Assembly (NCBI GenBank): GCA_963170185.1
Contig: CAUJGS010000079.1
Location: forward strand, 1 to 63,156
Source of the DNA: Bdellovibrionota bacterium
GTDB taxonomy: Bacteria; Bdellovibrionota; Bdellovibrionia; Bdellovibrionales; JAMPXM01
DNA: 63,156 nt
Direction: 5' to 3'
Of this stretch, positions 39,450 through 53,528 are shown piece after piece. The notes under the pieces are model-generated. The model searched no databases. It saw only the letters and a program-made list of their open reading frames with translations, and was not told the DNA's origin. Positions within the stretch are counted from its first letter, which is position 1. Each line of letters begins with the position of its first letter. The position numbers and the translations under genes were made by a program.

Positions 39450-40739
39450 TTAGACGAAGGTCGCAAACGGACGCGTGTGTTCGATCGCGTCGACTTCAAA
39501 CACCGCCATGAACAAGCGCTCAAGCCCCAGGGCGATCCCAGCAGCTGGCGGCACGCCCTCGTCAAAAACGCGCATCAGTTCTTCGTCGATCGGAACCGGC
39601 TCTCGCCCCGTCTGCCTCTTGGCGAACAGGTCGCGATCAAAGCGACGCTGGTTTTCGGAAGGATCATTGAGCTCATGGAATGCGTTGCAGAGTTCCAACC
39701 CCCGCCAGTAAACCTCAAACCGCTGGGCAAACCCATTGTCTCCGATCCGAGAAAGTGCGGCTTGTGAAGGTGGATAGTCCGTAATCAAGACCGGACTCCC
39801 GTCAGCGAGTTCCCCCAAACGAGACTCAATGCACTCGAGAAAAACCTTGTGAAAAAGGTCATCAAAACTGTCGTCCGGCAAAACGCGAATCCGCTTCTCA
39901 ACAGCCAGTCTCGCCAAGTCGTCGCGAGAGGAGTCACTTCGTAAATCGAATTCCACAAATCTTTTAAACAGAGCCGCCATCGTGGTTCTATATAGGCCCA
40001 CGCCTGGGCGAAAATGCCGAATCAGGCCCTCAACGTCATCCGCGATCTTTTCCAAGTCAGAAAAAGCGCGATACCACTCGAGCATGTGAAACTCGATTCG
40101 GTGCTGATGCCCACTTTCTTTGTTGCGAAAACATTTTGCGATTTCAAAAATTCGCGGCACGCCTGACCCAAGAATCTTCTTGAGATGAAACTCCGGACTC
40201 GTCACCAGGTAGCGTCGCTCATGAAGGCCCGCAAACTCGATCTCAATTGAAAGCGGATCAAGAAACGGCTCGGTGCCAGGAGATACCGCCAAAGCTGGAG
40301 TCGTCATTTCCTGAAATCCACGAGCCTCGAAAAACTGTCGAACTCCGGTTAAAAATGTCGACCATTTCCGAGCTTTGTCGCAAAGCAGATCGCCTTCTTG
40401 TACAGCGACCGGCCTCACGCAAGGTGCGAACAAAAGAACCTCGCCGCTTTTTGAGATCCCGACCCAATCTCCAACACGCAAGACCTCTTGAACAGGTGGC
40501 GCCGACTCACCGGCCTTGGGTTCACGAAAGCTCTCGACATGCCAGCGAAGTTCATCCGAGTTCAGACGCGACTCCGGGGCCTCGAAAGATCGATAGTCGC
40601 GAAGTACAAACTCGTCTTTGTCGCGACCGACGACACGACCGATGCGAAATCCCTCTAAGCTCTCTTGCCAAGCCGGATACCGACGCCAGTGGTGCCCCAA
40701 GAAAAGATCGCGCGCAGTGATAAAGTTGGCCGCCGTCAT
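39450..40739 (-). CDS. epmA: EpmA-like EF-P beta-lysine ligase with N-terminal extension
   Basis: 429 residues. The C-terminal 310 residues are a class II LysRS-like catalytic domain: FFEARGFQEMTTPALAVSPG, LVTSPEFHLKKILGSG, IFEIAKCFRNKESGHQH, EFHMLEWYRAF, ELCNAFHELNDP, GIALGLERLFMAVF. This matches EpmA (GenX/PoxA), which attaches lysine or beta-lysine to elongation factor P. E. coli EpmA is about 325 residues with no anticodon-binding domain; here 115 extra N-terminal residues look like a small OB-type domain (RIGRVVGRDKDEFVLRDY ... VLRVGDWVGISKSGE). It may be a modified EpmA, or a paralogue with different substrate. Neither efp nor epmB is in view. Confidence 0.82.
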   Translation of the reverse strand: MTAANFITARDLFLGHHWRRYPAWQESLEGFRIGRVVGRDKDEFVLRDYRSFEAPESRLNSDELRWHVESFREPKAGESAPPVQEVLRVGDWVGISKSGEVLLFAPCVRPVAVQEGDLLCDKARKWSTFLTGVRQFFEARGFQEMTTPALAVSPGTEPFLDPLSIEIEFAGLHERRYLVTSPEFHLKKILGSGVPRIFEIAKCFRNKESGHQHRIEFHMLEWYRAFSDLEKIADDVEGLIRHFRPGVGLYRTTMAALFKRFVEFDLRSDSSRDDLARLAVEKRIRVLPDDSFDDLFHKVFLECIESRLGELADGSPVLITDYPPSQAALSRIGDNGFAQRFEVYWRGLELCNAFHELNDPSENQRRFDRDLFAKRQTGREPVPIDEELMRVFDEGVPPAAGIALGLERLFMAVFEVDAIEHTRPFATFV

Positions 40740-40762: not shown

Positions 40763-42508
40763 TTAGAAGGAAAAGACGAGGCCCGTGCCCAGAATAGATT
40801 GGCGCTCTTGAACCCCGCTCTGTCCCTCGATAGGACGACGGATGTAGCGAAGCTTGCCGGAAACTTCAACCCCTAGCTGTGACGTCACTGCCAGCTGAAG
40901 CTGAACACCAGCCCCCGCTCCGAAAGCAAAGATCAAAGCCCCAAGGTCCGCGCCTGTCGTGTAAACCGGCCAGAAAAGCTCGCCGTGGAATCCCAAGCGC
41001 ACGCGTCCCTTGGGAACATAGTTGTAACGAGCCTCAGCAACCGGAGAAATGATCGTCGTCGTGGTAAGTGCCGAGATCTGATTCGGCAGCGGCACCACAT
41101 TGATCATGAACACACGGCCACCAGCGGAAAAGCTCCAAGCCGACTGCGCCCCACCTAATTGATAGACCGAATACAACCCCTGGAAGTCGACGAAGTTCAA
41201 CGTCTCACTTGTCGAACGAGCGCTGCCGAAAGCGCCCTGCAAGGTCCACACATCGTTGCCCCCCGCAAGATAACCAAACGGAGCACCATTTACTTTAAAG
41301 AGCTGCGATTCGTACTTCGGCGCCGCGGCCTCCGCCCCAAGAGATTGCAACTGGCCTCCGACACCAATCCACCAACGTCCCGAGACGATGCTGTGATCCG
41401 TGGCCTCCGTCGCCATCGCCTGAGAAACACGAAAACTCACCTTCGCAAACGGTTCCGCGCTAAAGCGTCGACCCGAAATCGGACCGATCACACTCTCGGT
41501 GGGGCCGTTGACCTTCTGTACAACCGCTTCACCAATCAGCCTTCTCGTCGAATTCAAGTTGGGGCGGCGAAACTCGAAGAGCTCTAGAATATCGCCTTCT
41601 TTGATCTGATGATTGGCTCCAAGGTTGACCGTCGCTTGTCCCTTGCCCATCGACGTCACGAAACCGCGATAAGGTGTCGCTTGCACGATCCCTTCGACAA
41701 TACGCTCGCTAAGAAGAGACACCGCGTTTTTCTCTTCCATCTCGCCGACCAAGTAGCGAAATTGAAAGCCTTTGATCTTGGCGCCGTTCACCGTGTTCAA
41801 CGTCCCAAGGATTTCCTCAAGGCCTATCTCGAGAATCAAGACTCCTTCGACCTGATTTTTCTTCGCCGTCTGCTGAATCAAAGAAGGACGAGCGTTTAAA
41901 GTTAACGCCCCTTCGATCGCACGAGGCTCATAGTAGGTCTTGGCCGCGAGATCTTGTAGTAAGCGCTCGGCCAAACGAGTCTCCAAGCCGGCCGGAACAT
42001 AGCGTCTCGCGCTGCGTGCGACACCGATTTTGACCAAACCCAAAGTGCGAATCGAAAGCTCTTTTGCATTGGCGCTGATCTTAACGGGGTCTTGCTCTTC
42101 AGGCCCGTCGTCAACCGCCTCCTCATCATCACTTTCTATTTCATCATCATCACTCGTCGCTTCGACGGCGGCTTTTTTAGGAGCCGCTTTCGTCGGACGC
42201 TTCGGCGCTTTGGCTTTGGGTTTTGTCGCTGGCTTTGGTGTCGGTTTCGCTTTTGGCTTCGAGCGGCTGGTCTTTTTTTTCTCTTGCGACTTGGCCGCCG
42301 CCTTCTTGACCTTGGACGAGGTCCGTTTGCTGGGTTTTACAACGGCACCCGGTGAATCCGAATCCGTTGAAGGCAAGCCACCTGGATCCGCCATGTTTTC
42401 AATCTCATCTGGCGTCGGCACATCGTCATCTTGAGCAAATGCCGCAGGACCCCAGCTCATCAAGCTGAGAGTCAACCCTGTCGCCAGCAAAAATCGCACG
42501 ATTGCCAT
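40763..42508 (-). CDS. Outer-membrane protein with Lys/Pro-rich linker and beta-barrel
   Basis: 581 residues from ATG 42508. Signal peptide (MAIVRFLLATGLTLSLMSWG...AFA); residues about 40-150 are a low-complexity Lys/Pro/Ala and then Asp/Glu tract (SKPKAKPTPKPATKPKAKAP; TSDDDEIESDDEEAVDDGPE); residues about 155-300 an alpha/beta domain (ELSIRTLGLVKIGVARS, RLAERLLQDLAAK) similar in style to FlgT/TolB-N or LpoB-like periplasmic domains; residues about 370-581 a C-terminal beta-barrel ending in LGTGLVFSF with terminal Phe. A Lys/Pro tract could span the periplasm and touch peptidoglycan. Function unknown. Confidence 0.8.
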   Translation of the reverse strand: MAIVRFLLATGLTLSLMSWGPAAFAQDDDVPTPDEIENMADPGGLPSTDSDSPGAVVKPSKRTSSKVKKAAAKSQEKKKTSRSKPKAKPTPKPATKPKAKAPKRPTKAAPKKAAVEATSDDDEIESDDEEAVDDGPEEQDPVKISANAKELSIRTLGLVKIGVARSARRYVPAGLETRLAERLLQDLAAKTYYEPRAIEGALTLNARPSLIQQTAKKNQVEGVLILEIGLEEILGTLNTVNGAKIKGFQFRYLVGEMEEKNAVSLLSERIVEGIVQATPYRGFVTSMGKGQATVNLGANHQIKEGDILELFEFRRPNLNSTRRLIGEAVVQKVNGPTESVIGPISGRRFSAEPFAKVSFRVSQAMATEATDHSIVSGRWWIGVGGQLQSLGAEAAAPKYESQLFKVNGAPFGYLAGGNDVWTLQGAFGSARSTSETLNFVDFQGLYSVYQLGGAQSAWSFSAGGRVFMINVVPLPNQISALTTTTIISPVAEARYNYVPKGRVRLGFHGELFWPVYTTGADLGALIFAFGAGAGVQLQLAVTSQLGVEVSGKLRYIRRPIEGQSGVQERQSILGTGLVFSF

Positions 42509-42515
42509 AGGTGAT

Positions 42516-42543
42516 AGACTAGGGTTTGGCACTATTTTGTCAA
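42516..42543 (-). promoter_or_regulatory. Candidate promoter giving a near-leaderless mRNA
   Basis: On the minus strand TTGACA (perfect -35), 16 bases, TAGTCT (weak -10). Transcription would begin about at 42509, next to the ATG at 42508, which has no visible ribosome-binding site. Confidence 0.4.
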
Positions 42544-42597
42544 TCAACTCTATTGGATTGATTGACCAGACGTTTGCACATCTGAACACTGGGAGAT

Positions 42598-43359
42598 GTG
42601 AACATCCTTCTCGCGGCACTTTTAGTTTTTGTCATTGATGCGACATTCAACGCATCTCAATCCCATGCCGCTCTCACGCTTTCAACACTTGCCGACAACG
42701 TCCCGGTTTACACGGGCCCTAGCGAACGTTTTCGCCTCTTGGCCGTGCTCCCCGCCAAAGCGGAGGTTAAGGCCTCGAATCAGATCGTCACCAGCGAGGC
42801 TGGGCGGTTTTATCGCGTGGTCGTCACACTCGGCGAGAACATGAAGGGCGTGGGCTTTATTCCGGTCAATGCCCCCATCAAAGTCGGTGGCGAAGACGAA
42901 GATGAGGACGATCTCTCGAAATATGGAGCAGTTGCTCTGATCAGCCGTGCCGCCCAAGTGACTTTCGGCAACTACAAAGACAAACAGTCCATGTGGACAG
43001 CGGGCTACATGCACTACCTAAGTCCCGGGTTTTACGCCAAGGGCATGGTCGGTCAGTGGATCACTCCGACCACCAATGCCTCACTCCTCGGCGCGGAGAT
43101 CGGGAACGACTCGCTGCTTATCGGGTCGATTTCAGGCTTCGTGTCTTACGGAATGGGACTCCTTAGTCCAGGCAACGACAACACGCTTTTTGCCGGAAGC
43201 GCGAAGCTCAACATCTTCATGAATGCCACAATCGGCGTTCGCTACAATATCGAGGGCTTCGCCTCCGTCGCCCTCGCCGGCACACAAGTCGCCTTCTACA
43301 ATCAGAACAACAGCATGGTGTCTAACGGCGTCCAAGTCAGTCTTGAGGTGGGCCTGTGA
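42598..43359 (+). CDS. Secreted SH3-like plus beta-barrel protein
   Basis: 253 residues, GTG start after GGGAGA. Signal peptide to about residue 24 (SQSHA). Residues 30-95 read as a bacterial SH3-like module (DNVPVYTGPSERFRLLAVLP, GRFYRVVV, VGFIPVNAP); residues 115-253 are amphipathic strands of a beta-barrel (QVTFGNYKDKQSMWTAGYM, FYAKGMVGQWITP, GVRYNIEGFASVALAGTQVAF) ending VSLEVGL. An acidic linker EDEDEDDL joins them. Its stop overlaps the start of the DUF3570 gene (GTGA), so the two are coupled. Probably an outer-membrane partner. Confidence 0.78.
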   Translation: MNILLAALLVFVIDATFNASQSHAALTLSTLADNVPVYTGPSERFRLLAVLPAKAEVKASNQIVTSEAGRFYRVVVTLGENMKGVGFIPVNAPIKVGGEDEDEDDLSKYGAVALISRAAQVTFGNYKDKQSMWTAGYMHYLSPGFYAKGMVGQWITPTTNASLLGAEIGNDSLLIGSISGFVSYGMGLLSPGNDNTLFAGSAKLNIFMNATIGVRYNIEGFASVALAGTQVAFYNQNNSMVSNGVQVSLEVGL

Positions 43360-44504
43360 TACATTTTGACCGTCATCACCCCACTCTGCGAAATCGACTT
43401 CGGCCCCTTGCCTTATTCGCCGCCTTTGTCGGCCTACCCATGGTTCTACCGTCTAAGGCACAGGCCGAACGTGAATTCTCCTCGGTGGTGCGCATGTACG
43501 ACGATAGCCGCACACGCGTCATCTCCCCGGCTATCGAAGTCGGATCGACCTTCAACGAAGACCGTATGAAAGTCTCAGTCCATGCGACTCAAGACATTCT
43601 CACGAGCGCTTCGAGCGAAGTAAAAACCTTCTCCTCCAAGGGGGAGATCGACGATCTTCGCAACGAGTACTCGGTGAACTTCGAAACTCAGATTCCCGAC
43701 GGAACGTTGAGCCTCGGTGTCGTCACTTCTGACGAAAAAGACTATAGCTCGAGAGTCATCAGTGCCGGCGGCACGCGCGAGTTTTTCACCAAAAACACGG
43801 TCGTCGGTTTCGGCTTTTCGTCTGGAAGCGACGTCATCACGGCAACCGCCAATGCTTCTTTCCGCGAAACCAAAGAGCACCAAAACTACTCGCTCTCGCT
43901 TTCGCAGATTCTTTCCAAAGAATCCCTGATTCAGCTCATCTACGACTTCCGCGTGGAAAGCGGTTACAACGCAAGCCCCTATCGCCGCGCCAAACTGATC
44001 ACGGGAAACTCGATCAGCGCCTTGAACGAAAACCATCCGCGCACAAGAAACCGTCATGCCGTCGGGGTAAAGTACAATATCTATATCCCGAAAATGAAAA
44101 CGTCGTTCGCCACGTCTTACCGGATCTATCAAGACAGCTGGGACGTTCTCTCGCACACGTTAGAAGAACGCATGACAAAAGAATTCAGTCGAAAATTCGA
44201 AGTCGCGCTCAGTCTGCGTTACTACATGCAGTCGAAAGCGAAGTTTTATCAGGACTACTACAATGGTGACCCTGGCGTTTTCTATTCAGGGAACAACACT
44301 CTAGCTACGTACAACTCTTATACAGTGGCACTCCGACCGGCTTACAATTTGACAGAGAAAACCAATTTGTCTCTCAAATTGGAATACTTCGCACAAAAGT
44401 TCCAAGATGCGACCGATGCCGGTAATCTTTCGACTCTTTCTGACGATAAGAAACTCGAGATTTCGGCGTTTGTCGTTGGCCTTGGTCTTTCGACAAAATT
44501 CTGA
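43356..44504 (+). CDS. DUF3570 outer-membrane beta-barrel protein
   Basis: 382 residues, GTG start with GAGGTGGG upstream. Signal peptide about 1-37 (cleaved at SKAQA/ER). Strong match by motif to DUF3570: YDDSRTRVISPAIEVG near the start, SLSQILSKESLIQLIYDFRV, ENHPRTRNRHAVGVKYN, TSYRIYQDSWDVLSHTLEE, LSLRYYMQSKAKFYQDYY, final strand LGLGLSTKF. DUF3570 proteins are predicted barrels found next to DUF4266 lipoproteins, thioredoxins and ApbE, as seen here. Function is not known; exporter or receptor for the DUF4266 partner is a reasonable guess. Confidence 0.88.
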   Translation: MIHFDRHHPTLRNRLRPLALFAAFVGLPMVLPSKAQAEREFSSVVRMYDDSRTRVISPAIEVGSTFNEDRMKVSVHATQDILTSASSEVKTFSSKGEIDDLRNEYSVNFETQIPDGTLSLGVVTSDEKDYSSRVISAGGTREFFTKNTVVGFGFSSGSDVITATANASFRETKEHQNYSLSLSQILSKESLIQLIYDFRVESGYNASPYRRAKLITGNSISALNENHPRTRNRHAVGVKYNIYIPKMKTSFATSYRIYQDSWDVLSHTLEERMTKEFSRKFEVALSLRYYMQSKAKFYQDYYNGDPGVFYSGNNTLATYNSYTVALRPAYNLTEKTNLSLKLEYFAQKFQDATDAGNLSTLSDDKKLEISAFVVGLGLSTKF

Positions 44505-44517
44505 TTTCGTTTATACT
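44490..44517 (+). promoter_or_regulatory. Candidate internal promoter for the thioredoxin-DUF4266 genes
   Basis: TCGACA, 16 bases, TATACT; each hexamer matches the sigma-70 consensus at five of six positions. It overlaps the end of the DUF3570 gene and would start a transcript near 44524, ten bases before the thioredoxin start. Confidence 0.5.
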
Positions 44518-44533
44518 ACTAGTGGGGGCACAC

Positions 44534-45058
44534 ATGAATTCATCTCGTTTTGAGACGCTCAAGCGTTCGGCGGCACTGTTTTCCGTAGCGTTTGGCTTGG
44601 TTTTATCTTCGCCAGCAGAGGCAAAGCTTAAAGAGGGCGAAGATTTCCCTGTCATTAAAGTCTCTCAATTCGCCGGAAAACCCAAAGTGGACATGGCCAA
44701 AAAGCTCAAAGGCAAAGTCGTTATCGTCGACTTCTGGGCGAGCTGGTGTGAGCCTTGTAAACTCGAGCTCCCGGCTCTTGAGAAGCTTCACAAGAAATAC
44801 AAAGGCAAACTGACCATCATCGGTGTCAACGTTGACGACGATGTGAACTCGGCAAAAGGGTTCCTAAAAGACCACCCTGTCAGCTTCGACCTCGTGTATG
44901 ATAAGGGTCAGAAGATCGCTGGCGAAATTGGAATCGAAAAAATGCCGACGTCTTTTATTCTTTCAAACGGAAAGATCGTGAAAGTCCACGAAGCCTTCCG
45001 TGCTGGCGACGAGAAAAAGATCGACGCCGAAGTTAAAAAAATCCTCACAGGGGGTTGA
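44534..45058 (+). CDS. TlpA/ResA-like periplasmic thioredoxin
   Basis: 174 residues from ATG 44534 (GGGGGC upstream). Signal peptide ending SSPAEA. Thioredoxin fold with active site DFWASWCEPCKLELPAL (WCEPC), then TIIGVNVDDDVNSAKGFL and the cis-Pro loop KMPTSFILS. TlpA/ResA-type proteins reduce disulphides in the periplasm, for example in cytochrome c maturation. The neighbours are a Cys-tailed DUF4266 lipoprotein and several c-type heme proteins, either of which could be its substrate. Gap to the next gene is 3 bases. Confidence 0.93.
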   Translation: MNSSRFETLKRSAALFSVAFGLVLSSPAEAKLKEGEDFPVIKVSQFAGKPKVDMAKKLKGKVVIVDFWASWCEPCKLELPALEKLHKKYKGKLTIIGVNVDDDVNSAKGFLKDHPVSFDLVYDKGQKIAGEIGIEKMPTSFILSNGKIVKVHEAFRAGDEKKIDAEVKKILTGG

Positions 45059-45061
45059 TCC

Positions 45062-45307
45062 ATGATTCAGCAAACCACAAAGAAGCTCGTGATTCTTTCA
45101 TTGGCTGCGGTAGCTCTTATGACGCTGCCGGGTTGTGGTTTGCTTGGACGTCGGGTCAGCGCTTTCGAACGCGGAACTCTCTCGAAAAACGGAATGCAAC
45201 TCGTTGGCGCTCCCAAAGAACAAGCGAGCGTCAACCATATGCTGAACGCTCGAGAAGGCTCCGTCGGAGGGTTCGGTGGAGCCGGGGGCGGTTGTGGTTG
45301 TAACTAG
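45062..45307 (+). CDS. DUF4266 small lipoprotein with Gly-rich Cys tail
   Basis: 81 residues. Lipoprotein signal with canonical lipobox (LPGC, Cys at about 25). The mature peptide is under 60 residues: VSAFERGTLSKNGMQLVG, the DUF4266 hallmark (ERGxLxxxxM), and a C-terminus of Gly runs ending GAGGGCGCN. The only Cys after the lipid-modified one are the two at the end, separated by Gly, so a metal or cofactor could bind there or they may be linked to a partner by the adjacent thioredoxin. Family uncharacterised to my knowledge. Overlaps the next gene by 14 bases. Confidence 0.9.
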   Translation: MIQQTTKKLVILSLAAVALMTLPGCGLLGRRVSAFERGTLSKNGMQLVGAPKEQASVNHMLNAREGSVGGFGGAGGGCGCN

Positions 45308-45713
45308 GGCCGCTGGTACTTCTCTGCTCTCACTCGCTCTTCTCGCGATCGCGACTTTTCTTACCGGTTGTTCGGTTGATCTCTCAAATACGACTCCCGG
45401 CGCGTCTACCACAGGCGCTTGCGGCACGGCGCCGACTCAAGCACTAACCGATATTCAACCGGTCATCGAAAACTTTCTGAAAACAAGCTGCGCCACCTGC
45501 CACGGCGTCACCACGGGTTCGGTGCAAACAGGATTCTTCACGCCTGATATGGGCTCGGTCTCAACAGACCCGGCCGTTCAACAGTTCGCCTACACCCAAC
45601 TCTGCGCACGTGGCGGAAAAGCGGTGTCGACAAAGATCGCTCCGGGCAACGGTCACGGCGGCGGCGATTTCACCAATCCGGACTTCGACAATTTCCTCAA
45701 TACCTACTTCTGA
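45294..45713 (+). CDS. Monoheme c-type lipoprotein
   Basis: 139 residues. Start taken as GTG 45294, inside the end of the DUF4266 gene, with GGGGGC ahead; other starts are possible from 45276. Lipobox FLTGC. Heme attachment motif CATCH in FLKTSCATCHGVTTGSV, preceded by IQPVIENFLKTSC, as in cytochrome c-like domains of planctomycete and Bdellovibrionota proteins. The rest is short; the distal Met ligand could be that in PDMGSV. Probably an electron carrier or a heme-bearing structural protein at the outer membrane. Confidence 0.82.
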   Translation: MVVTRAAGTSLLSLALLAIATFLTGCSVDLSNTTPGASTTGACGTAPTQALTDIQPVIENFLKTSCATCHGVTTGSVQTGFFTPDMGSVSTDPAVQQFAYTQLCARGGKAVSTKIAPGNGHGGGDFTNPDFDNFLNTYF

Positions 45714-45919
45714 AGTTCGCCGCTTCGGCCATTGCTAACTCTTGATGTCTAGAGTTCAGTCGCCGTCTCAACCTGATGTGCAAAGAAGTTTGACTGCGAC
45801 GAAGTCGGCTGGCGAGCTCGCACTCACCCGAAGCAGGCCAAGCAAGACATAATCATCAAAATCATCTCAATTCGAGGAAACCCATAGCTCCCACTAAAGG
45901 CGCTTATGGCAAGCGACCG

Positions 45920-45948
45920 AGAAACTGTCTCACGCCGAGACAGTTTCT
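45920..45948. repeat. Perfect 12-bp inverted repeat, probable terminator hairpin or operator
   Basis: AGAAACTGTCTC - ACGCC - GAGACAGTTTCT. Very stable stem with a 5-base loop, about 207 bases after the monoheme lipoprotein gene. There is no T-run after it, so classic rho-independent termination is uncertain. Confidence 0.6.
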
Positions 45949-46045
45949 GTATGCAAGATAACGAACTATGAGCCTTCGCACATGCTTCCAAGCCGTTCTA
46001 AATTCGAGTCACCACTGACGATTTCAACTTAGCGTCAACAGACTG

Positions 46046-46055
46046 GACAATTGTC
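46046..46055. promoter_or_regulatory. Palindrome GACAATTGTC
   Basis: Ten-base perfect palindrome flanked by CTG...AG, upstream of the heme/DUF1501 cassette; possible operator. No matching regulator gene is known nearby. Confidence 0.3.
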
Positions 46056-46174
46056 AGAACGTGAACAGATGTAAACCAACCTATACGTTTATGCCCGAAA
46101 ATGTCACGGCATCAGCCTTGCTCTACTACTCCATAGGGATTGCACCATTTGTTCGTTTGTCTTTGGGGGGTACG

Positions 46175-47473
46175 ATGAAAAAGTCTCGAACTGAGACCCT
46201 TAACGGGTTCACGAATCTGGGAGTCGCCGTAGTTGGCGCCACTCTATCAGTTCTTGCCGCTCCATTTATGATGTCGGAAGCCCAGGCTCAGGTAACACCG
46301 ATTCCTGCTGTCGCTCCGAATCCGACTGGTGAGATCTCAGCGGAACGCCAACGCGCTCAAAAGCTCTTCCAAGCCATCACTGGCGTAAAGGTAGCGATTG
46401 ATGACTCGCGCTTGGTGCAAATGGAAACTCAGCTGAAAGCTGGTAATCCACGAGCGGCGGCGGCGATCGCATCGCAAGATCCGCTCTTCTTGGACGTGCA
46501 AATCCGAGACGTCGCAAAACTCATGTCGACTCGTGAACAAACAATTCGTGCGCCAATGTCGGACTTCGTCGCGACTTTCATCGGTGTCGTTCGCGATAGC
46601 GATACTCGCAGCGCAAAAGAGTTGCTGACAGGTAACTTCTATTACCGCGTCGATCCGGCGGTCATCGCGACTCTTCCAGCCAACGCGACGATTCGTCAGG
46701 CTGAACAAGCCGACATCATTCAAAGTAACAACCACTACAATGACTTGGCGACGCGCAACCTTTCGCCTTCGGCGGTCCTAATCGCTCAGTCACCACAACG
46801 CGCTTTGCAAAACAACGCCGTCGTAAACCACCCGGATCCGGCTGGTCTTCTTACCACACGTGCGTTTGTTGAAGCCCACGCGGTAGCAGGTACTAACCGC
46901 CGCGTTGTCGAAGAGATGATGCAAGAGTTCATGTGCGTGAAGATGGAAGAGTGGGCAGACGGTAACGCGCCAGACGACCGCGTCTCGCAAGACGTCACGC
47001 GCACGCCATCAGGTAGCGTAAACCTCTACCTCACGACCTGTAAGACATGTCACTCGGGCATGGACGGTATGCGCGGCGCTTGGGCGTTCGTCGACTTCAC
47101 GAACAACGCGCAAACGATCTCGACCAACGTTCTCGGCAAGATGACTCGTAACCAAACGGAATATCCGCAAGGTTACCGCATCACCGACAACAGCTGGGTT
47201 AACAACGCGATCTACGGCAAAAACGCCGATCAATTTGGCTGGAGAAGCTCGCTTTCTGGTAACGGCATCGGCGGTCTCGCCCGCATGGTCGCAGACTCGC
47301 GCGGTTTCTCACGCTGTATGGTTCGCAAAGCCTTCCAAGCGGTCTGCCGTCGTAGCCCGCTTGCTGGAGAAGAAAACCTGGTCCGCACGCTCGCTGATCA
47401 GTTCGAAGCCGATGGCTACCACGCTCGTCGTATGTACGAGAACGTAGCTGTGAACCCTAACTGTGTGCAGTAA
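46175..47473 (+). CDS. Secreted DUF1588-like c-type heme protein
   Basis: 432 residues, ATG at 46175 after GGGGGG. Signal peptide ending near SEAQA. C-terminal half resembles the DUF1592/DUF1588/DUF1585 proteins of planctomycetes and myxobacteria: NHPDPAGLLTTRAFVEAH, TNRRVVEEMMQEFMCVKMEEW, then LTTCKTCHSGMDGMRGAWAFVDF with heme motif CKTCH. Late Cys (FSRCMVRK, AVCRRSP, NPNCVQ) probably pair. First gene of a four-gene plus-strand cassette. Such proteins are always near DUF1501/DUF1552-type Tat proteins; their biochemical role is unknown. Confidence 0.82.
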   Translation: MKKSRTETLNGFTNLGVAVVGATLSVLAAPFMMSEAQAQVTPIPAVAPNPTGEISAERQRAQKLFQAITGVKVAIDDSRLVQMETQLKAGNPRAAAAIASQDPLFLDVQIRDVAKLMSTREQTIRAPMSDFVATFIGVVRDSDTRSAKELLTGNFYYRVDPAVIATLPANATIRQAEQADIIQSNNHYNDLATRNLSPSAVLIAQSPQRALQNNAVVNHPDPAGLLTTRAFVEAHAVAGTNRRVVEEMMQEFMCVKMEEWADGNAPDDRVSQDVTRTPSGSVNLYLTTCKTCHSGMDGMRGAWAFVDFTNNAQTISTNVLGKMTRNQTEYPQGYRITDNSWVNNAIYGKNADQFGWRSSLSGNGIGGLARMVADSRGFSRCMVRKAFQAVCRRSPLAGEENLVRTLADQFEADGYHARRMYENVAVNPNCVQ

Positions 47474-47498
47474 GAGAAGAGAAGAAGAGGTTATCGCC

Positions 47499-48182
47499 AT
47501 GAAAAACTTTAAAGAGATGACACTCTCGCAAAAGCGCAAACTCCTGGCCTCTACAGGCCTTCCGATGGCTGCGCTGGTTCTCATCATCGGCTTCCAAAAC
47601 TGTAGCCCAGGACTCGTTCAGAGTACGAAGTTGCAGTCGACAGGGCCGTCAGGCAACTCGCCTCTGAATATCGAGGAAGACACCAAGCCGGTGACCACTG
47701 TGAATGCGGAAAACCTTCTGGTTTCGATGCAATCACTGACTGGAATCCAAGCGGTGTCGGCTCGTACGATTACAGCGGCCAACAACGCAAAGACCAAGGT
47801 CACGGAAACAGGAAAAGCCGACTCGATCAACGGCCCGATGTGGCTCTCGATCACCAACTTGAGCGGCGAGGTCTGTCTTGATCTCGTGACCGACGAGAAG
47901 GCGAAAGCTCAGGGCGAACGTCGTTTCTTCGGTCAGGTGAACTTCAACGCGGCTCCAAGCGCGATGACGGCCGATATCAAAGACGACATGATCCGCCGTA
48001 TGGCTCGAAACTTCTGGGGACGTAACGAGTCTGTCGCAGAACGAGCCGTTATCAAATCGTCTCTAGATGAGGCACTGGCTCAACCTCGTCGAAACGGTGT
48101 CTCCGATGCCGTTGAAACGGAAGATGCGCTGATTTTCACTTGTTCAGCGATGCTTGCATCACTGGATGCGATGAAATTCTAA
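47499..48182 (+). CDS. QNC-type lipoprotein-like protein
   Basis: 227 residues; ATG 47499 with GAAGAGG ahead. Membrane-entry segment LPMAALVLIIGFQNCSPG places a Cys after a hydrophobic helix, but with Gln-Asn before it instead of the normal lipobox Gly/Ala/Ser. The mature region has a Thr/Ser-rich linker and then a helical part (MTADIKDDMIRRMARNFWGR) and Cys at VCLDLV and FTCSAML. No heme motif. Coupled to the heme protein upstream (gap 25 bases) and the DUF1501-like gene downstream. Probably an envelope subunit of the same complex. Confidence 0.75.
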   Translation: MKNFKEMTLSQKRKLLASTGLPMAALVLIIGFQNCSPGLVQSTKLQSTGPSGNSPLNIEEDTKPVTTVNAENLLVSMQSLTGIQAVSARTITAANNAKTKVTETGKADSINGPMWLSITNLSGEVCLDLVTDEKAKAQGERRFFGQVNFNAAPSAMTADIKDDMIRRMARNFWGRNESVAERAVIKSSLDEALAQPRRNGVSDAVETEDALIFTCSAMLASLDAMKF

Positions 48183-48256
48183 GGGGTTCCGGGCTGCGGG
48201 GGTAATTATTGGCAGACTTCTGCCGATAAAGAAAAGCAAGGCAATTTGGGGGAATT

Positions 48257-49825
48257 ATGAAAGAACGTACAGACGATAATATGTTCATCAAGAAAGTCGT
48301 CGACGAACAAACCGGCGAAGAGAACACGATCGTCCTCCACAAGGATAAACCGAAGCCAACTACACGCCGCGAGTTCCTTTCAAGCGGTCTCCTCGGTTTC
48401 TCCGGAACCATGGTTGCGCCTTCCATCCTCAACGTCCTGGCTCGACCAGAGTTCGCATTCGGTCAGACAGACGACTCGTGTTCCGTACCGGCCGCGGGAC
48501 TTCCGGCATTCATTGTCGTGAACCTCTCCGGTGGCGCATCGATCTCTGGTAACCTTCCACCACTTGGTGAAGACCGCCAACCTCTTGCTCGATACGATCT
48601 CCTAAGCCTTGGGCCCGATAACAACGTTTTCACAAACGACGCCATCGGCTCAAACTGGTTCCAGCAACAAGGTGACACGGGCGACTTCCGCATGAACGTA
48701 CGTGTTGCGGGAACTCGTAACGCCGGCGTTCCGCGCGGTCACATGTTCTTGGGCATCAGCTTGCGCGCATCGCAAGCGACAATCGACAAAACAGCGCTCG
48801 TCAACGCCTGTACGGCATCGGGCGACGATACGTCCAACAACCAAGCCGATCCGACAGGTGGAGTCTTGGCTGCGGGTCTTACCGGTGAATCTCTTCCCAA
48901 CCTCGGTACTCGTGACGGTACGGGCACAGGCGTCGGTCAACAGCCGGCCGTCGTGCGCCCAGCAGCTCCTCTTATCGTTCGTAACTTCACGGACATCTCA
49001 GGAGCGCTCGGTCCTGCCGGTACGCTTGCGACCCGCTTAACTGCGAGTCGCCGCACTAAGCTTCTTGAACTCGTGAACTCACTCTCCGGCTCTCAGGCAC
49101 GTGCCGTCGCTTCGCCAGGAAGCGCGACAGGTACGATGATCGCGAAGGTTGTCGAGTGTGCGACCGGTAAAAACATCGAGCTTGCGACGCAAGATATGTC
49201 GACGGCGATCGACCCAGGTCTCGACCCAGGTGTCGCCGCTGTTTGGGGTATCAACCCGAACAACAAAGCCGGTGCGGCCTACGCGCAAGCCGCGATGGTG
49301 TTCAACGCCCTCAAAGGCAACGCCTCGACTTGTTCGATCGATATGGGCGGATACGATTATCACGGCACGGGAACTGCGAACTGTAACACACGCGACCAAC
49401 AAGCCGGTGAGATGATCGGCCGCATCCTAGAAACTGCGGCCGTCATGAGCAAACCCGTCTTCGTCTACGTGGTCAGCGACGGTTCCGTTTCCGGCCCAAG
49501 CGGTGGCGCTTTCGGTACAGGACCGACGAACGACTCAGGTACTCGCGGCGAGCTCTTGTTCTTCGCTTTCCACCCGTCTTCGCGTCCTCGTATCAAAGAC
49601 GATCGCTGGGGTCGTCAGATCGGGTACTTCACCGCGGGACAAGGTGCTTCCGACCAGACGGTCGTGGGTACCGTCCAAAAAGGTGCCGCAGCAGCAGTCG
49701 CAAACTGGCTGGCACTTGCGGGCGGAAACAACTTAAGCAAGTTCGAAGCGATCTATCCGGGCCTCTTCCAGCGCTCGGAGATCGACGGCGAGTTGGTTCG
49801 TATCGTGCCGACATCGGGATCGTGA
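48257..49825 (+). CDS. Tat-exported DUF1501-like protein
   Basis: 522 residues. Tat signal TTRREFLSSGLLGFSG at about residue 36, placed unusually far in behind a charged tail (KVVDEQTGEENTIVLHKD). The mature protein starts with FIVVNLSGGASISGN, the DUF1501 opening, and has NAGVPRGHMFLGISLRASQ, IDMGGYDYHGTG (sulfatase-like metal region of the alkaline-phosphatase-fold DUF1501 family), AAVMSKPVFVYVVSDGS and AFHPSSRPRI. Folded in the cytosol, perhaps with a cofactor, before export. In other bacteria DUF1501 genes pair with heme proteins of the type encoded just upstream. Reaction unknown. Confidence 0.85.
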   Translation: MKERTDDNMFIKKVVDEQTGEENTIVLHKDKPKPTTRREFLSSGLLGFSGTMVAPSILNVLARPEFAFGQTDDSCSVPAAGLPAFIVVNLSGGASISGNLPPLGEDRQPLARYDLLSLGPDNNVFTNDAIGSNWFQQQGDTGDFRMNVRVAGTRNAGVPRGHMFLGISLRASQATIDKTALVNACTASGDDTSNNQADPTGGVLAAGLTGESLPNLGTRDGTGTGVGQQPAVVRPAAPLIVRNFTDISGALGPAGTLATRLTASRRTKLLELVNSLSGSQARAVASPGSATGTMIAKVVECATGKNIELATQDMSTAIDPGLDPGVAAVWGINPNNKAGAAYAQAAMVFNALKGNASTCSIDMGGYDYHGTGTANCNTRDQQAGEMIGRILETAAVMSKPVFVYVVSDGSVSGPSGGAFGTGPTNDSGTRGELLFFAFHPSSRPRIKDDRWGRQIGYFTAGQGASDQTVVGTVQKGAAAAVANWLALAGGNNLSKFEAIYPGLFQRSEIDGELVRIVPTSGS

Positions 49826-49887
49826 TACGAGTCCAACAGAAGCCTGGGTTATAGCGGAACGTCGGATGGCAAAGTAGGGGGCTAGAT

Positions 49888-50793
49888 ATGTCTGAGATCC
49901 GTCTCGAGACATCAAATGAAAAGGACTCTAGAAGTGCGAGTGGGCAAAAGCCCACTCGTTCCTCGCGCGGCTTCGCCCAACGCCTTCTTATCGGATTGGC
50001 TTCCGCTACTTGCATCATCTTTTATCAAAACTGCGGGACTGACTTTGTTCCGCTAGATGAATCGGCTCTTTCTGGTTTGGGTAAATTCGTCTGCGGATCG
50101 ACTCTTGAAGAGACCTTCGCAAAGACCTACCACCCTTTCGTGGTACAAAACTGCGCCGGTTGCCATGGCGGAGCCCAAGCTCCACGCTTTGCCCTTAGTG
50201 ATTCAAGTCTTGCCTACAACGACTTCTTGCTCACAACTCAAAGCACGTTCCGAACTTACGCTCTTAACCCGAGTCATGGAGGAGCTGCGGGCGGCCCGAA
50301 AAACGAAGAAGCCGTCACGCTTGCAGAATCCAACTACAACAGTTGCAAACCAACAGGCGGCGACGACGGCGAGAGCCACGTCATCACGGCTCGAACGCAG
50401 CCTCTGGCACTCAACGCCACGGCGGCTCTTCAAGTTCGACTACTTAACAACTTGGGTGGCCAACTGCAGCTTGGCAACACAAACCTAAGTGGCGCGCAAT
50501 TGGACTTCCAAGTGCGCATTGATACAACTGCAAGTCCACCCGCCTATGTCATCGCTCGACCACGCCTTCAAACCGGCGCAGCGGCGATCCGGGTTAAGGG
50601 TATGTACATCATGATCAACGGGGTACGTATCCAAACCGCAAATGCCTTTATGAGTCTGGATCGAACAATCAATGCCAATACCACTTTGGCAAATGGAACG
50701 CTTGCAACGGGCTCGGCGATCTTCGAGTACCCGGGCGCTCAGCCGACCACCGACACCGTCCAGTTTGAATTCGAATTGCTCGCACCCCAGTGA
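49888..50793 (+). CDS. Monoheme lipoprotein-like protein (QNC type)
   Basis: 301 residues from ATG 49888 (AGGGGGC upstream). N-terminal tail of 28 charged residues, hydrophobic segment LLIGLASATCIIFYQNCG with the same non-standard QNC motif as the protein at 47499, then a heme motif CAGCH in VVQNCAGCHGGAQAP. Residues 80-150 include two Cys; residues 170-301 are beta-rich (QLQLGNTNLSGAQLDFQVRI, ATGSAIFEYP). It ends the cassette, 34 bases before the methyltransferase. Likely an outer-leaflet or periplasmic electron-transfer protein working with the DUF1588-like one. Confidence 0.82.
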   Translation: MSEIRLETSNEKDSRSASGQKPTRSSRGFAQRLLIGLASATCIIFYQNCGTDFVPLDESALSGLGKFVCGSTLEETFAKTYHPFVVQNCAGCHGGAQAPRFALSDSSLAYNDFLLTTQSTFRTYALNPSHGGAAGGPKNEEAVTLAESNYNSCKPTGGDDGESHVITARTQPLALNATAALQVRLLNNLGGQLQLGNTNLSGAQLDFQVRIDTTASPPAYVIARPRLQTGAAAIRVKGMYIMINGVRIQTANAFMSLDRTINANTTLANGTLATGSAIFEYPGAQPTTDTVQFEFELLAPQ

Positions 50794-50817
50794 TCTTAAG
50801 GCGAATTATGAATTACG

Positions 50818-50843
50818 ATGAGGAGGTATGAAAACCTCCTCAT
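50818..50843 (+). promoter_or_regulatory. Perfect 10-bp hairpin enclosing the start codon of the methyltransferase gene
   Basis: ATGAGGAGGT - ATGAAA - ACCTCCTCAT. The left arm contains the ribosome-binding site GAGGAGG, the loop begins with the start codon ATG, and the right arm is coding. In mRNA this would hide the ribosome-binding site. TTTCGTTTTT follows, so on the DNA level it also resembles a terminator for the upstream cassette. Confidence 0.7.
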
Positions 50844-52231
50844 TTCGTTTTTGGTCATGTCCCGCGACGGGCCTGCCTCTCATCGACGACGGCCGAGACT
50901 TTCGGTCAGCGACAGAAGAAGCAATGGTCTATCCAAAGGTCGGTGGAGTTCCTTGGCTTTTTCCAGATCCAAAATTCGTGCTCTCTCACTGGCGAGAGCG
51001 AATCGACCTTTTTCTTGAATCTCGCACACACGAAATCGAAGAGCTAAAGAGCTCCATCAAGTCCGCGGCATCACCGAACACCAAATCGCGTCTTGAAATT
51101 CTCCGCCAATCAAAAATCACACAGCTAGAGCTTCTCAAAAAAGTGCTCGATCCGATGAAACCAGGAACAAAGCTATCACTCCCCAAAAAACAGGCTTTCG
51201 GCTACCGACTGCCATTCAATCAGGGGCTTTTAGGCTACTTTCCAAATATGGCGCGGGACTGGGCGGTTGGCCAAACTGGCTTCTCTCAGGAAAACAAAAC
51301 GCTTCTCGATGCCGTACTTGCGATCATTCCAGAATCGGCCAAAACGTCGATGGCGGCCTCCGAGCGAAACATCGCCGTTCTCGGTTGCGGAGCCGGTCGT
51401 CTTCCCTATGATATCGCAAATCAGTTTCCAAAATCTCATGTCGTTGCGGTCGACTTGAATCCACTTCTCTTGCTCGCCGCTCAGCAATTAAATTCCGGAG
51501 CAAAGCTAAAAGGAATATTCCCAACGGTTTCGCCCAAAGACCGAATGAAGCCCGCAATTGAAGTCGATTTGGCTGCGCCAAAAGGCCCGGCGAAAAATCT
51601 GGAGTTCGCGTTTGCCGATGTGTATGCACTTCCATTTCAACCTTCGAGCTTCGATCTTGTTATCACCCCGTGGTTAGTCGACATTCTGCCTCGACATTTC
51701 TCTCTACTGACCTCTTCCATCGCACAAATCGTAAAACCAAGCGGACTATGGATCAATTCGGGTGCCTGGGCCTTCAACTTCCAAAACGAAGAAGACAACT
51801 TAAGCCTTCTTGAAGCTGAAGAAGTTGGAACCGCGACGGGATGGACGCCACTCACAAGCCGCATTGTCGAAACCGCTTACTTACAAAGCGAAGTCGACGC
51901 TCATCGACGCTTTGAAACTATGACGACTTTTGCCTGGGAGCGAACGGAAGCGGCGGTGCCCTACGATTCGCGTGCACGCGTCACCGACAAAATCGAATGG
52001 CTCTCGAACCCTTCCCTGCCGATTCCTCGTTTGCCGGCATTCGCTCAAAGCATAGAGTCGCTGTCGACAATGACCTGGGTGCTTTCGCAAGTCGATGGCC
52101 ATCGAACTCTTACTGACCTTGTCAAAATTCTTTCTGAGCAAAGCGGCCTGGAACCCGAGGCCTCGCGCGATGCGCTGGAGTCGTTCTTTGACCGCTATCT
52201 GAAAGACCGAACGTTTCGCGAAAGGACTTAG
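50828..52231 (+). CDS. SAM-dependent methyltransferase, carnosine N-methyltransferase (N2227)-like
   Basis: 467 residues, no signal peptide. Residues 1-45 contain a short Trm112-like segment (RFWSCPATGLPLIDDG, PKVGGVPWLF). Residues about 55-100 are helical. The methyltransferase core has NIAVLGCGAGRLPYDIA (motif I), VVAVDLNPLLLLAAQQLNSG, FAFADVYALPFQPSSFDLV and KPSGLWINSGAWAF, resembling the N2227 family (carnosine N-methyltransferase of eukaryotes), which also has a RDW/E segment upstream (here MARDWAVGQTGF). Residues 390-467 are a separate helical tail with a PqqD-like pattern (VDGHRTLTDLVKILSEQSG). Substrate unknown; a peptide-modification role is conceivable because of that tail. Confidence 0.75.
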   Translation: MKTSSFRFWSCPATGLPLIDDGRDFRSATEEAMVYPKVGGVPWLFPDPKFVLSHWRERIDLFLESRTHEIEELKSSIKSAASPNTKSRLEILRQSKITQLELLKKVLDPMKPGTKLSLPKKQAFGYRLPFNQGLLGYFPNMARDWAVGQTGFSQENKTLLDAVLAIIPESAKTSMAASERNIAVLGCGAGRLPYDIANQFPKSHVVAVDLNPLLLLAAQQLNSGAKLKGIFPTVSPKDRMKPAIEVDLAAPKGPAKNLEFAFADVYALPFQPSSFDLVITPWLVDILPRHFSLLTSSIAQIVKPSGLWINSGAWAFNFQNEEDNLSLLEAEEVGTATGWTPLTSRIVETAYLQSEVDAHRRFETMTTFAWERTEAAVPYDSRARVTDKIEWLSNPSLPIPRLPAFAQSIESLSTMTWVLSQVDGHRTLTDLVKILSEQSGLEPEASRDALESFFDRYLKDRTFRERT

Positions 52232-52338
52232 GGTGGCGCTACGCCCTCCGGGCTACGCTGCTTTCCGCGCAGGCGGCGCGGAAAGATTTGGGGGTGGCGC
52301 TACGCCCTCCGGGCTACGCTGCTTTCCGCGCAGGCGGC
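52231..52338. repeat. Duplicated 47-base element with hairpin between convergent genes
   Basis: Two identical 47-base copies (52231-52277 and 52292-52338) separated by 14 bases. In the first, CTTTCCGCGC and GCGCGGAAAG form a perfect 10-bp stem with a 5-base loop, the second arm running into the spacer. It resembles a REP-type extragenic element and may act as the terminator between the methyltransferase and apbE. No third copy seen in the window. Confidence 0.85.
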
Positions 52339-53463
52339 CTATTTTAATTCGCCTACGACGATATAACCTTCGCCCCAAGGGCCTTTGGTTTTTTTCAAAC
52401 CTTTGGTGAGATGCACCCGACCGTCCGCATCGACGAGGACTGCGCGAAATCCTTTTTCCTCAAGAATTGGAATTGCTTTTTGCGGCCCCATTACAAACGC
52501 GGCCGTGTCCCACGCATCGGCATCCAAGCCACGTTTGGAAATCACCGTAACCTGCCTAGAGCGATTCGCAGGTCTTCCAGTTTTAGGGTCGATCACATGG
52601 TGCACCCGACGTCCGCCGCGCATAAAAAACTTCTCGTCATCCCCGCACGTCGTGATCGCAAAGTCCGAGCCATAAATCCGCAGAAGCACCTCTTGCTGAC
52701 CGGGTACGCCCGCTTGCCAAAGCGGGTTGCGAACGCCTGTTGTCCAAAGGGCTCCGCCAGGCTTGTGTCCCCAAAAGACTGTGTCACCGCTACCGTCGAC
52801 ATAACCACCGCGATAACCTTTAGCTTTGAAAAACTTCATCAGTTCATCGGCGGCGTAGCTCTGGCCAACCGCACCAAGCCCGAGCTTCATACCCGTTTTT
52901 TCTAAAAACGCGGTCGACTTTTCGCTGTCGAGTCGCACCTTGCGCCAATCGATGAGTGGCAAGCGAGTGCGAAGTTCTTCTTCGGTCGCCTCTCGCTCCT
53001 CGCCTTTTTTAAAAACGTAGGTTCCCCACATCACGTTAAAGGTGGGATCAAAAGCTCCATCCGAATCTCGCGCAACGTCTAGCGAAAACTTAAGCAGATC
53101 AAAGAGCTCTTTTCGTACCTTCACAGGCGACTGGCCGGCGCTGGAATTGACTTTGGAAAGCTCTGTCTCGGGAAGCCAGTCGCTCATCCACTCGTTCATT
53201 TTCTTGATTTGCAAAAAACCCTCTGTCATGTCGGCCCGCGCCCGTGCCTGCTGAGAAGCTAAAATCACCAGACAGATCTTAAAAGGCGTGCCCATTTCCG
53301 AGCGGGTTCCGCACTCGAGATACTCTGTCTCCTTGGCTAGTTCTTCGGTCGCCGTTTGTTCCGCTGGCCCGGCATTCGACACCATGGAAAATGCTACGCT
53401 CGACAGAACTAAACAGAAACTCAAACCCTGACAGAGCTTCACCATTTTTGACGGCTTCACCAT
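52339..53463 (-). CDS. apbE: FAD:protein FMN transferase (ApbE)
   Basis: 374 residues. Signal peptide (LCQGLSFCLVLSSVAFSMVSNA). ApbE attaches FMN from FAD to Thr/Ser of periplasmic and membrane proteins using Mg. Motifs: ETELSKVNSSAG, GAFDPTFNVMWG, GMKLGLGAVGQSYAADELMKF (usual D/KG...KG region), DPKTGRPANRSRQVTVI and LDADAWDTAAFVMG (metal-binding Asp and Thr). About 40 residues of spacer follow the signal. ApbE often sits with DUF3570/DUF4266/thioredoxin genes, which are 7 kb away here on the other strand. No obvious flavin acceptor (S/TGAT) was noted among the neighbours. ATG at 53463; other starts near. Confidence 0.93.
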   Translation of the reverse strand: MVKPSKMVKLCQGLSFCLVLSSVAFSMVSNAGPAEQTATEELAKETEYLECGTRSEMGTPFKICLVILASQQARARADMTEGFLQIKKMNEWMSDWLPETELSKVNSSAGQSPVKVRKELFDLLKFSLDVARDSDGAFDPTFNVMWGTYVFKKGEEREATEEELRTRLPLIDWRKVRLDSEKSTAFLEKTGMKLGLGAVGQSYAADELMKFFKAKGYRGGYVDGSGDTVFWGHKPGGALWTTGVRNPLWQAGVPGQQEVLLRIYGSDFAITTCGDDEKFFMRGGRRVHHVIDPKTGRPANRSRQVTVISKRGLDADAWDTAAFVMGPQKAIPILEEKGFRAVLVDADGRVHLTKGLKKTKGPWGEGYIVVGELK

Positions 53464-53528
53464 GTTTGCTCGACCTCGCAATAAATCTCGTGTAGATGCT
53501 CCCTAACGACATAACGAGGAGACGATCT

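Follow-up and report, generated by a model that had tools for sequence, protein, structure and literature searches.

The DNA analysed here, a 63,156-nucleotide stretch of a Bdellovibrionota contig that we call the window, carries a gene run that consists of two adjoining modules: module 1, made up of genes A–E and ApbE, and module 2, made up of genes F–I and usually followed by gene J. The set of DUF3570, DUF4266, thioredoxin and ApbE has already been published (Meheust et al. 2021, PMC8238504), and with its own heme lipoprotein and an adjoining heme cassette the locus is a new variant of it. Computation establishes the gene families, their order, their conserved linkage, the promoter site, the homology of E and I, and the predicted barrel. 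We lean, a little beyond even, toward reading the locus as a heme-bearing variant of the known flavin/thiol system, including the relay proposed below, that stands beside an independent sigma54-type heme/Tat-protein cassette. Both the DUF3570/DUF4266 system and heme cassettes of the DUF1501/DUF1588 type are widespread and unexplained, and a lineage in which they adjoin, with a heme lipoprotein of the module 2 type inside module 1, gives a practical way to test what each is connected to.

Layout and division into two modules

The original prediction described a nearly continuous run of ten plus-strand genes with a converging ApbE, and an ORF check of the window located all eleven at the coordinates below. 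Continuity holds within each module, where neighbors overlap or lie no more than 74 bp apart, but breaks between E and F, which are separated by 461 bp. The prediction had also read gene A as a secreted SH3/barrel protein; the SH3 label rests on reading by eye.

42598–45713 (plus) and 52339–53481 (minus): module 1, with DUF3570, TlpA thioredoxin, DUF4266 and a monoheme lipoprotein, plus ApbE
46175–50793, plus: module 2, with a DUF1588/1585 monoheme protein, a QNC lipoprotein, a Tat protein and a second monoheme lipoprotein
42598–43359, plus: gene A, secreted protein, SH3-like/barrel by eye, no Pfam match
43356–44504, plus: gene B, DUF3570, predicted 16-strand outer-membrane beta-barrel (Pfam E 4e-47)
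43593–43613, plus: predicted flavinylation motif D80-I-L-T-S-A-S86 in DUF3570 (rule from PMC12052999)
44522–45058, plus: gene C, TlpA/ResA-like periplasmic thioredoxin, WCEPC (Pfam Redoxin 2e-19)
45062–45307, plus: gene D, DUF4266 lipoprotein (Pfam 6e-15)
45276–45713, plus: gene E, monoheme (CATCH) lipoprotein, overlapping the end of the DUF4266 gene
45919–45947, plus: perfect 12-bp inverted repeat inside the E–F gap, candidate terminator or activator site
46107–46122, plus: sigma54 (-24/-12)-type promoter CGGCATCAGCCTTGCT, roughly 50 bp upstream of the start codon of F
46175–47473, plus: gene F, secreted monoheme (CKTCH) DUF1588/DUF1585-type protein, likely start ATG 46175
47463–48182, plus: gene G, QNC-box lipoprotein, no family match, between F and H in the loci read
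48257–49825, plus: gene H, Tat-exported (RR invariant), predicted alkaline-phosphatase-superfamily fold, DUF1501-like
49888–50793, plus: gene I, monoheme (CAGCH) QNC-box lipoprotein (alignment)
50828–52231, plus: gene J, CARME-like methyltransferase (Pfam CARME 1e-13) with a weak PqqD-like C-terminus
52339–53481, minus: gene K, ApbE, FAD:protein FMN transferase (Pfam 8e-67)

Other genera of the window's family (f1) keep nearly the full gene order at protein identities that mostly range from 25 to 80%, and the run is therefore not a product of chance. Rfam returned zero matches over the whole window, terminator-like sites, set aside here, number 21 against 14 expected, and a scan for sigma70-type promoters gave matches at chance level.

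The flavin module and its predicted barrel

In the only paper that our literature search found to name DUF3570 or DUF4266, ApbE flavinylates DUF3570, whose gene is grouped with those for thioredoxin, DUF4266 and often DsbD (PMC8238504). Like this system, module 1 brings together ApbE, DUF3570, a thioredoxin-like protein and DUF4266 with a C-terminal CXC in a single cluster. A DsbD-type protein is present in all 15 genomes searched and lies outside the locus in the window's genome; clusters without adjacent DsbD are described in the published set too, where they number 316. The window differs in carrying one D-x-x-T-S-[AS]-S motif rather than the two [S/T]GA[S/T] motifs of the published DUF3570s, in having gene A and, after DUF4266, the monoheme lipoprotein E, and in placing ApbE on the opposite strand. 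Plain DUF3570–thioredoxin–ApbE operons in f18, another family of the phylum, have the same core genes and in several cases a small protein ending in GGCGCN, whereas most of their DUF3570s have two motifs 11 residues apart, and in the loci read no F–I cassette adjoins them. When the profile of the heme-type DUF3570 was compared with named genomes, it retrieved seven records, all of them, to judge by their titles, from Bdellovibrionota-type metagenome-assembled genomes.

A structural model of DUF3570, built from 28 sequences (pLDDT 80.6), has about 16 strands and resembles outer-membrane export and porin barrels, with Z about 20 against those of PelB and PgaA; the protein also ends in an aromatic residue, F382, as outer-membrane barrels do. 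The candidate flavinylation motif spans the end of the modelled strand 71–83 and the start of the next loop. In the alignment of the 28 sequences, D80 and S86 are invariant and T83 nearly so, and all nine heme-type DUF3570s keep D-x-x-T-S-[AS]-S, with D, T and Ser invariant among them; theirs is a single motif, without the second one present in related DUF3570s. At the position where the window's motif has Ser, the published rule calls for Gly; a Gly-to-Ala change elsewhere halved flavinylation, with Ser not reported there (PMC12052999). One f18 DUF3570 (L114) has TSAS at both motif positions, which suggests that the Ser variant may work. We infer that flavinylation would occur at Ser86. The motif loop probably faces outward, with the flavin at the cell surface, because counting strands from the C-terminus puts this loop (pLDDT below 50) on the long-loop side of the barrel. 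An outward-facing flavin is a prediction of the model that can be checked. Four other f18 DUF3570s that adjoin ApbE (L110, L111, L112 and L113) have no match to D-x-x-[ST]-[GSA]-A-[ST]; in the alignment their motif regions read AES and GES or GQS.

Both f1 and G016, a genome of another family of the order, keep gene A directly ahead of DUF3570. The DUF4266 protein has a lipobox and ends in GGCGCN, a Cys-x-Cys terminus that is invariant in the 11 aligned sequences. ApbE occurs in 11 of 11 genomes with DUF4266 and in 2 of 10 others (p = 0.0002, for a hand-chosen genome set). In G011, the sequenced locus holds no ApbE and two ApbE genes lie elsewhere in the genome; a second, plain-type DUF3570 there is followed by ApbE (L050, 5570–7829), with the heme-type locus on another contig.

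Gene E is the component that distinguishes this variant. Its matches at E < 1e-40 are confined to ten genomes (G000–G004, G007, G010, G011, G012 and G016), where they adjoin DUF4266; the profile was built from the sequences of these same ten, so that their strength is by construction, and no comparable match falls anywhere else. Several weaker matches of the E profile fall in I genes, and the E and I profiles match each other at E 6e-10, with part of the match falling on the signal peptide. By profile comparison, then, the heme domain of E is homologous to that of I, and this match, together with the confinement of strong matches to the neighborhood of DUF4266, makes E a member of module 1 that resembles a module 2 component.

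In the reading we prefer, ApbE would attach FMN to DUF3570 at Ser86 while both are in the periplasm, and DUF3570 would insert as a 16-strand outer-membrane barrel that presents the flavin on a loop facing outward. A DsbD-type protein could feed electrons to the thioredoxin, which would hand them to the Cys-x-Cys end of DUF4266 and so to the flavin, and the heme lipoprotein E, peculiar to this variant, may connect the flavin branch to c-type heme carriers. Module 2 (F–I, usually with J) would be read from its own sigma54-type promoter, and because I carries the same heme domain as E, the two modules may share redox partners. We infer the path and direction of the electrons, as well as any electron exchange between the modules.

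The F–I cassette and the site upstream of it

Module 2 is an order-wide four-gene cassette, with the order F-G-H-I kept in about 30 loci. Where J is present it comes after the cassette, and it was not found in L051 and L052. F is probably of the expected 'DUF1588-like heme' type, to judge by its relatives, which match DUF1585 in 14 of 16 cases and DUF1588 in 4 of 16; F's own Pfam DUF1585 match, at 9e-5, lies just below the cut-off. For H, the Tat part of the expected 'Tat DUF1501-like' label is borne out, but Pfam DUF1501 (PF07394) matched none of 30 sequences (H and 29 relatives) at E <= 1. A model of H (pLDDT 77.1) predicts an alkaline phosphatase/sulfatase superfamily fold, with Z about 11 to sulfatases, nucleotide pyrophosphatases/phosphodiesterases (NPPs) and EptA-type domains, and Foldseek on this model returned no match at E <= 0.001. 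H shares its Tat signal and predicted fold with DUF1501 and that superfamily, and its family differs from DUF1501 proper in lacking the Pfam match across those 30 members.

The nearest described counterparts of the cassette are the PSCyt/PSD (DUF1588/DUF1585) heme genes of Planctomycetes, reported without known function, in which a DUF1588/DUF1585 heme protein likewise stands beside uncharacterised families (PMC5615132). A Laminin_G_3 domain in one F relative adds to the likeness. Unlike those pairs, the cassette in the window's family is fixed at four genes, includes two lipoproteins and has a sigma54-type promoter. Three longer F relatives from other families (L057, L059 and L061) carry about 300 extra N-terminal residues, and it is there that L057 matches Laminin_G_3.

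The E–F gap contains CGGCATCAGCCTTGCT, with GG at -24, GC at -12 and the fixed spacing between them, and nowhere else does the window match the sigma54 type strictly; rpoN is present in the genome. With the pattern CGGCA-N6-TTGCT settled after the loci had been inspected, relatives' F starts placed by eye, and five loci coming from one genus and not independent, a site of this type lies 59–130 bp before F in 10 of 11 f1 genomes, against 0.017 expected per 350 nt. The exception, L048, has a near match only, two of the ten (L055 and L056) have the site before F though they are without module 1, and none of three outgroup loci has it upstream of F. Given the 461-bp gap and a conserved site that also precedes F where module 1 is absent, modules 1 and 2 appear to be transcribed as two separate units. 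If the conserved block before F is read with longer spacing (TGTCACG...), it misfits sigma54 spacing, which CGGCA-N6-TTGCT fits. Genome-wide, the motif count fell below that of a reversed control pattern and is uninformative on any regulon. The hairpin at 45919–45947, which 0 of 2000 shuffles reproduced, occurs in this genome only, and we rejected it as a named element given its absence from relatives' gaps.

Linkage and shared function

The joining of two modules of known type, as originally predicted, is real and conserved across f1. DUF4266 and H occur together in nine f1 genomes, all of which fit one locus: seven have the two genes about 5 kb apart or less on a single contig, and G001 and G002 have them on separate contigs that both end within gene G, consistent with the same arrangement. 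Four f1 genomes have H without detected DUF4266 (two of these genomes are 57–64% complete), and G006 and G008 keep F–J with DUF4266 not detectable. Outside f1 but within the order, G016 and G060 have DUF4266 and no match to H, and H occurs in 52 genomes without DUF4266. In f18, H is found in 17 of the 26 genomes carrying DUF3570. The neighborhood comparison therefore splits: the modules are linked in f1, but the co-occurrence of DUF4266 and H across the order is not significant (Fisher p = 0.20).

By itself the linkage argues only weakly for shared function, because f1 conserves the surrounding gene order in general; the flanking HU, the gene at 39450 and GcvP are kept in order as well. We regard it as quite possible, if short of probable, that the two are unrelated redox modules that have stood side by side since the f1 ancestor, kept there by general gene-order conservation with no shared function. 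The sigma54-type promoter that F–J have of their own, the order-wide result, the f18 loci, in which the modules were not seen linked, and the F–J genes of G006 and G008 all agree with such an account. It sits less well with the homology of E to I, given that E is confined to the DUF4266 variant, and with G016, where a similar juxtaposition involves a different DUF1501/DUF1588-like pair. That genome has A-B-C-D, two E-type monoheme proteins and ApbE, and this flavin module adjoins a DUF1588/1585-like protein and a Tat protein that matches DUF1501 weakly. As a single genome in an order where such heme genes are common, it is no more than suggestive of a functional tie. The G016 Tat protein was considered as an H orthologue, and despite its weak Pfam DUF1501 match the profile comparison failed.

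The original prediction went further, to one pathway, and E–I homology and G016 leave room for this, but a single co-expressed run is not supported, given the gap, the sigma54-type site and the order-wide result. We think it very doubtful that the genes form one co-expressed heme/flavin/thiol operon serving one substrate, for example DUF4266 maturation or metal uptake. Their common strand, the tight spacing within modules and the linkage conserved in f1 would suit such an operon, as would the iron transporter sometimes found in published DUF3570 clusters (PMC8238504); against it stand the 461-bp break with its conserved site, the presence of each module alone in other genomes, the lack of any recognised transporter within the run, and DUF4266 itself. 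The proposed maturation or export of a DUF4266 peptide is unsupported: by sequence DUF4266 looks like an ordinary lipoprotein partner with an invariant Cys-x-Cys, not a precursor peptide, and the modified partner in the literature is DUF3570. A ribosomally synthesized peptide (RiPP) scheme, in which the PqqD-like end of J would act on DUF4266, was likewise set aside, as DUF4266 has a lipobox and the PqqD match of J exceeds the Pfam cut-off only in the relative L056 among the members scanned. A single relay, in which the surface flavin barrel, the thiol carriers and the sigma54-controlled heme/Tat cassette would exchange electrons through the paired E and I, also strikes us as unlikely.

One further gene borders the flavin module. 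A secreted 618-aa protein with no clear Pfam match, encoded at 40763–42619 on the minus strand and divergent from gene A, is kept in f1 and is probably tied to the flavin module; a relative of it adjoins ApbE in G016.
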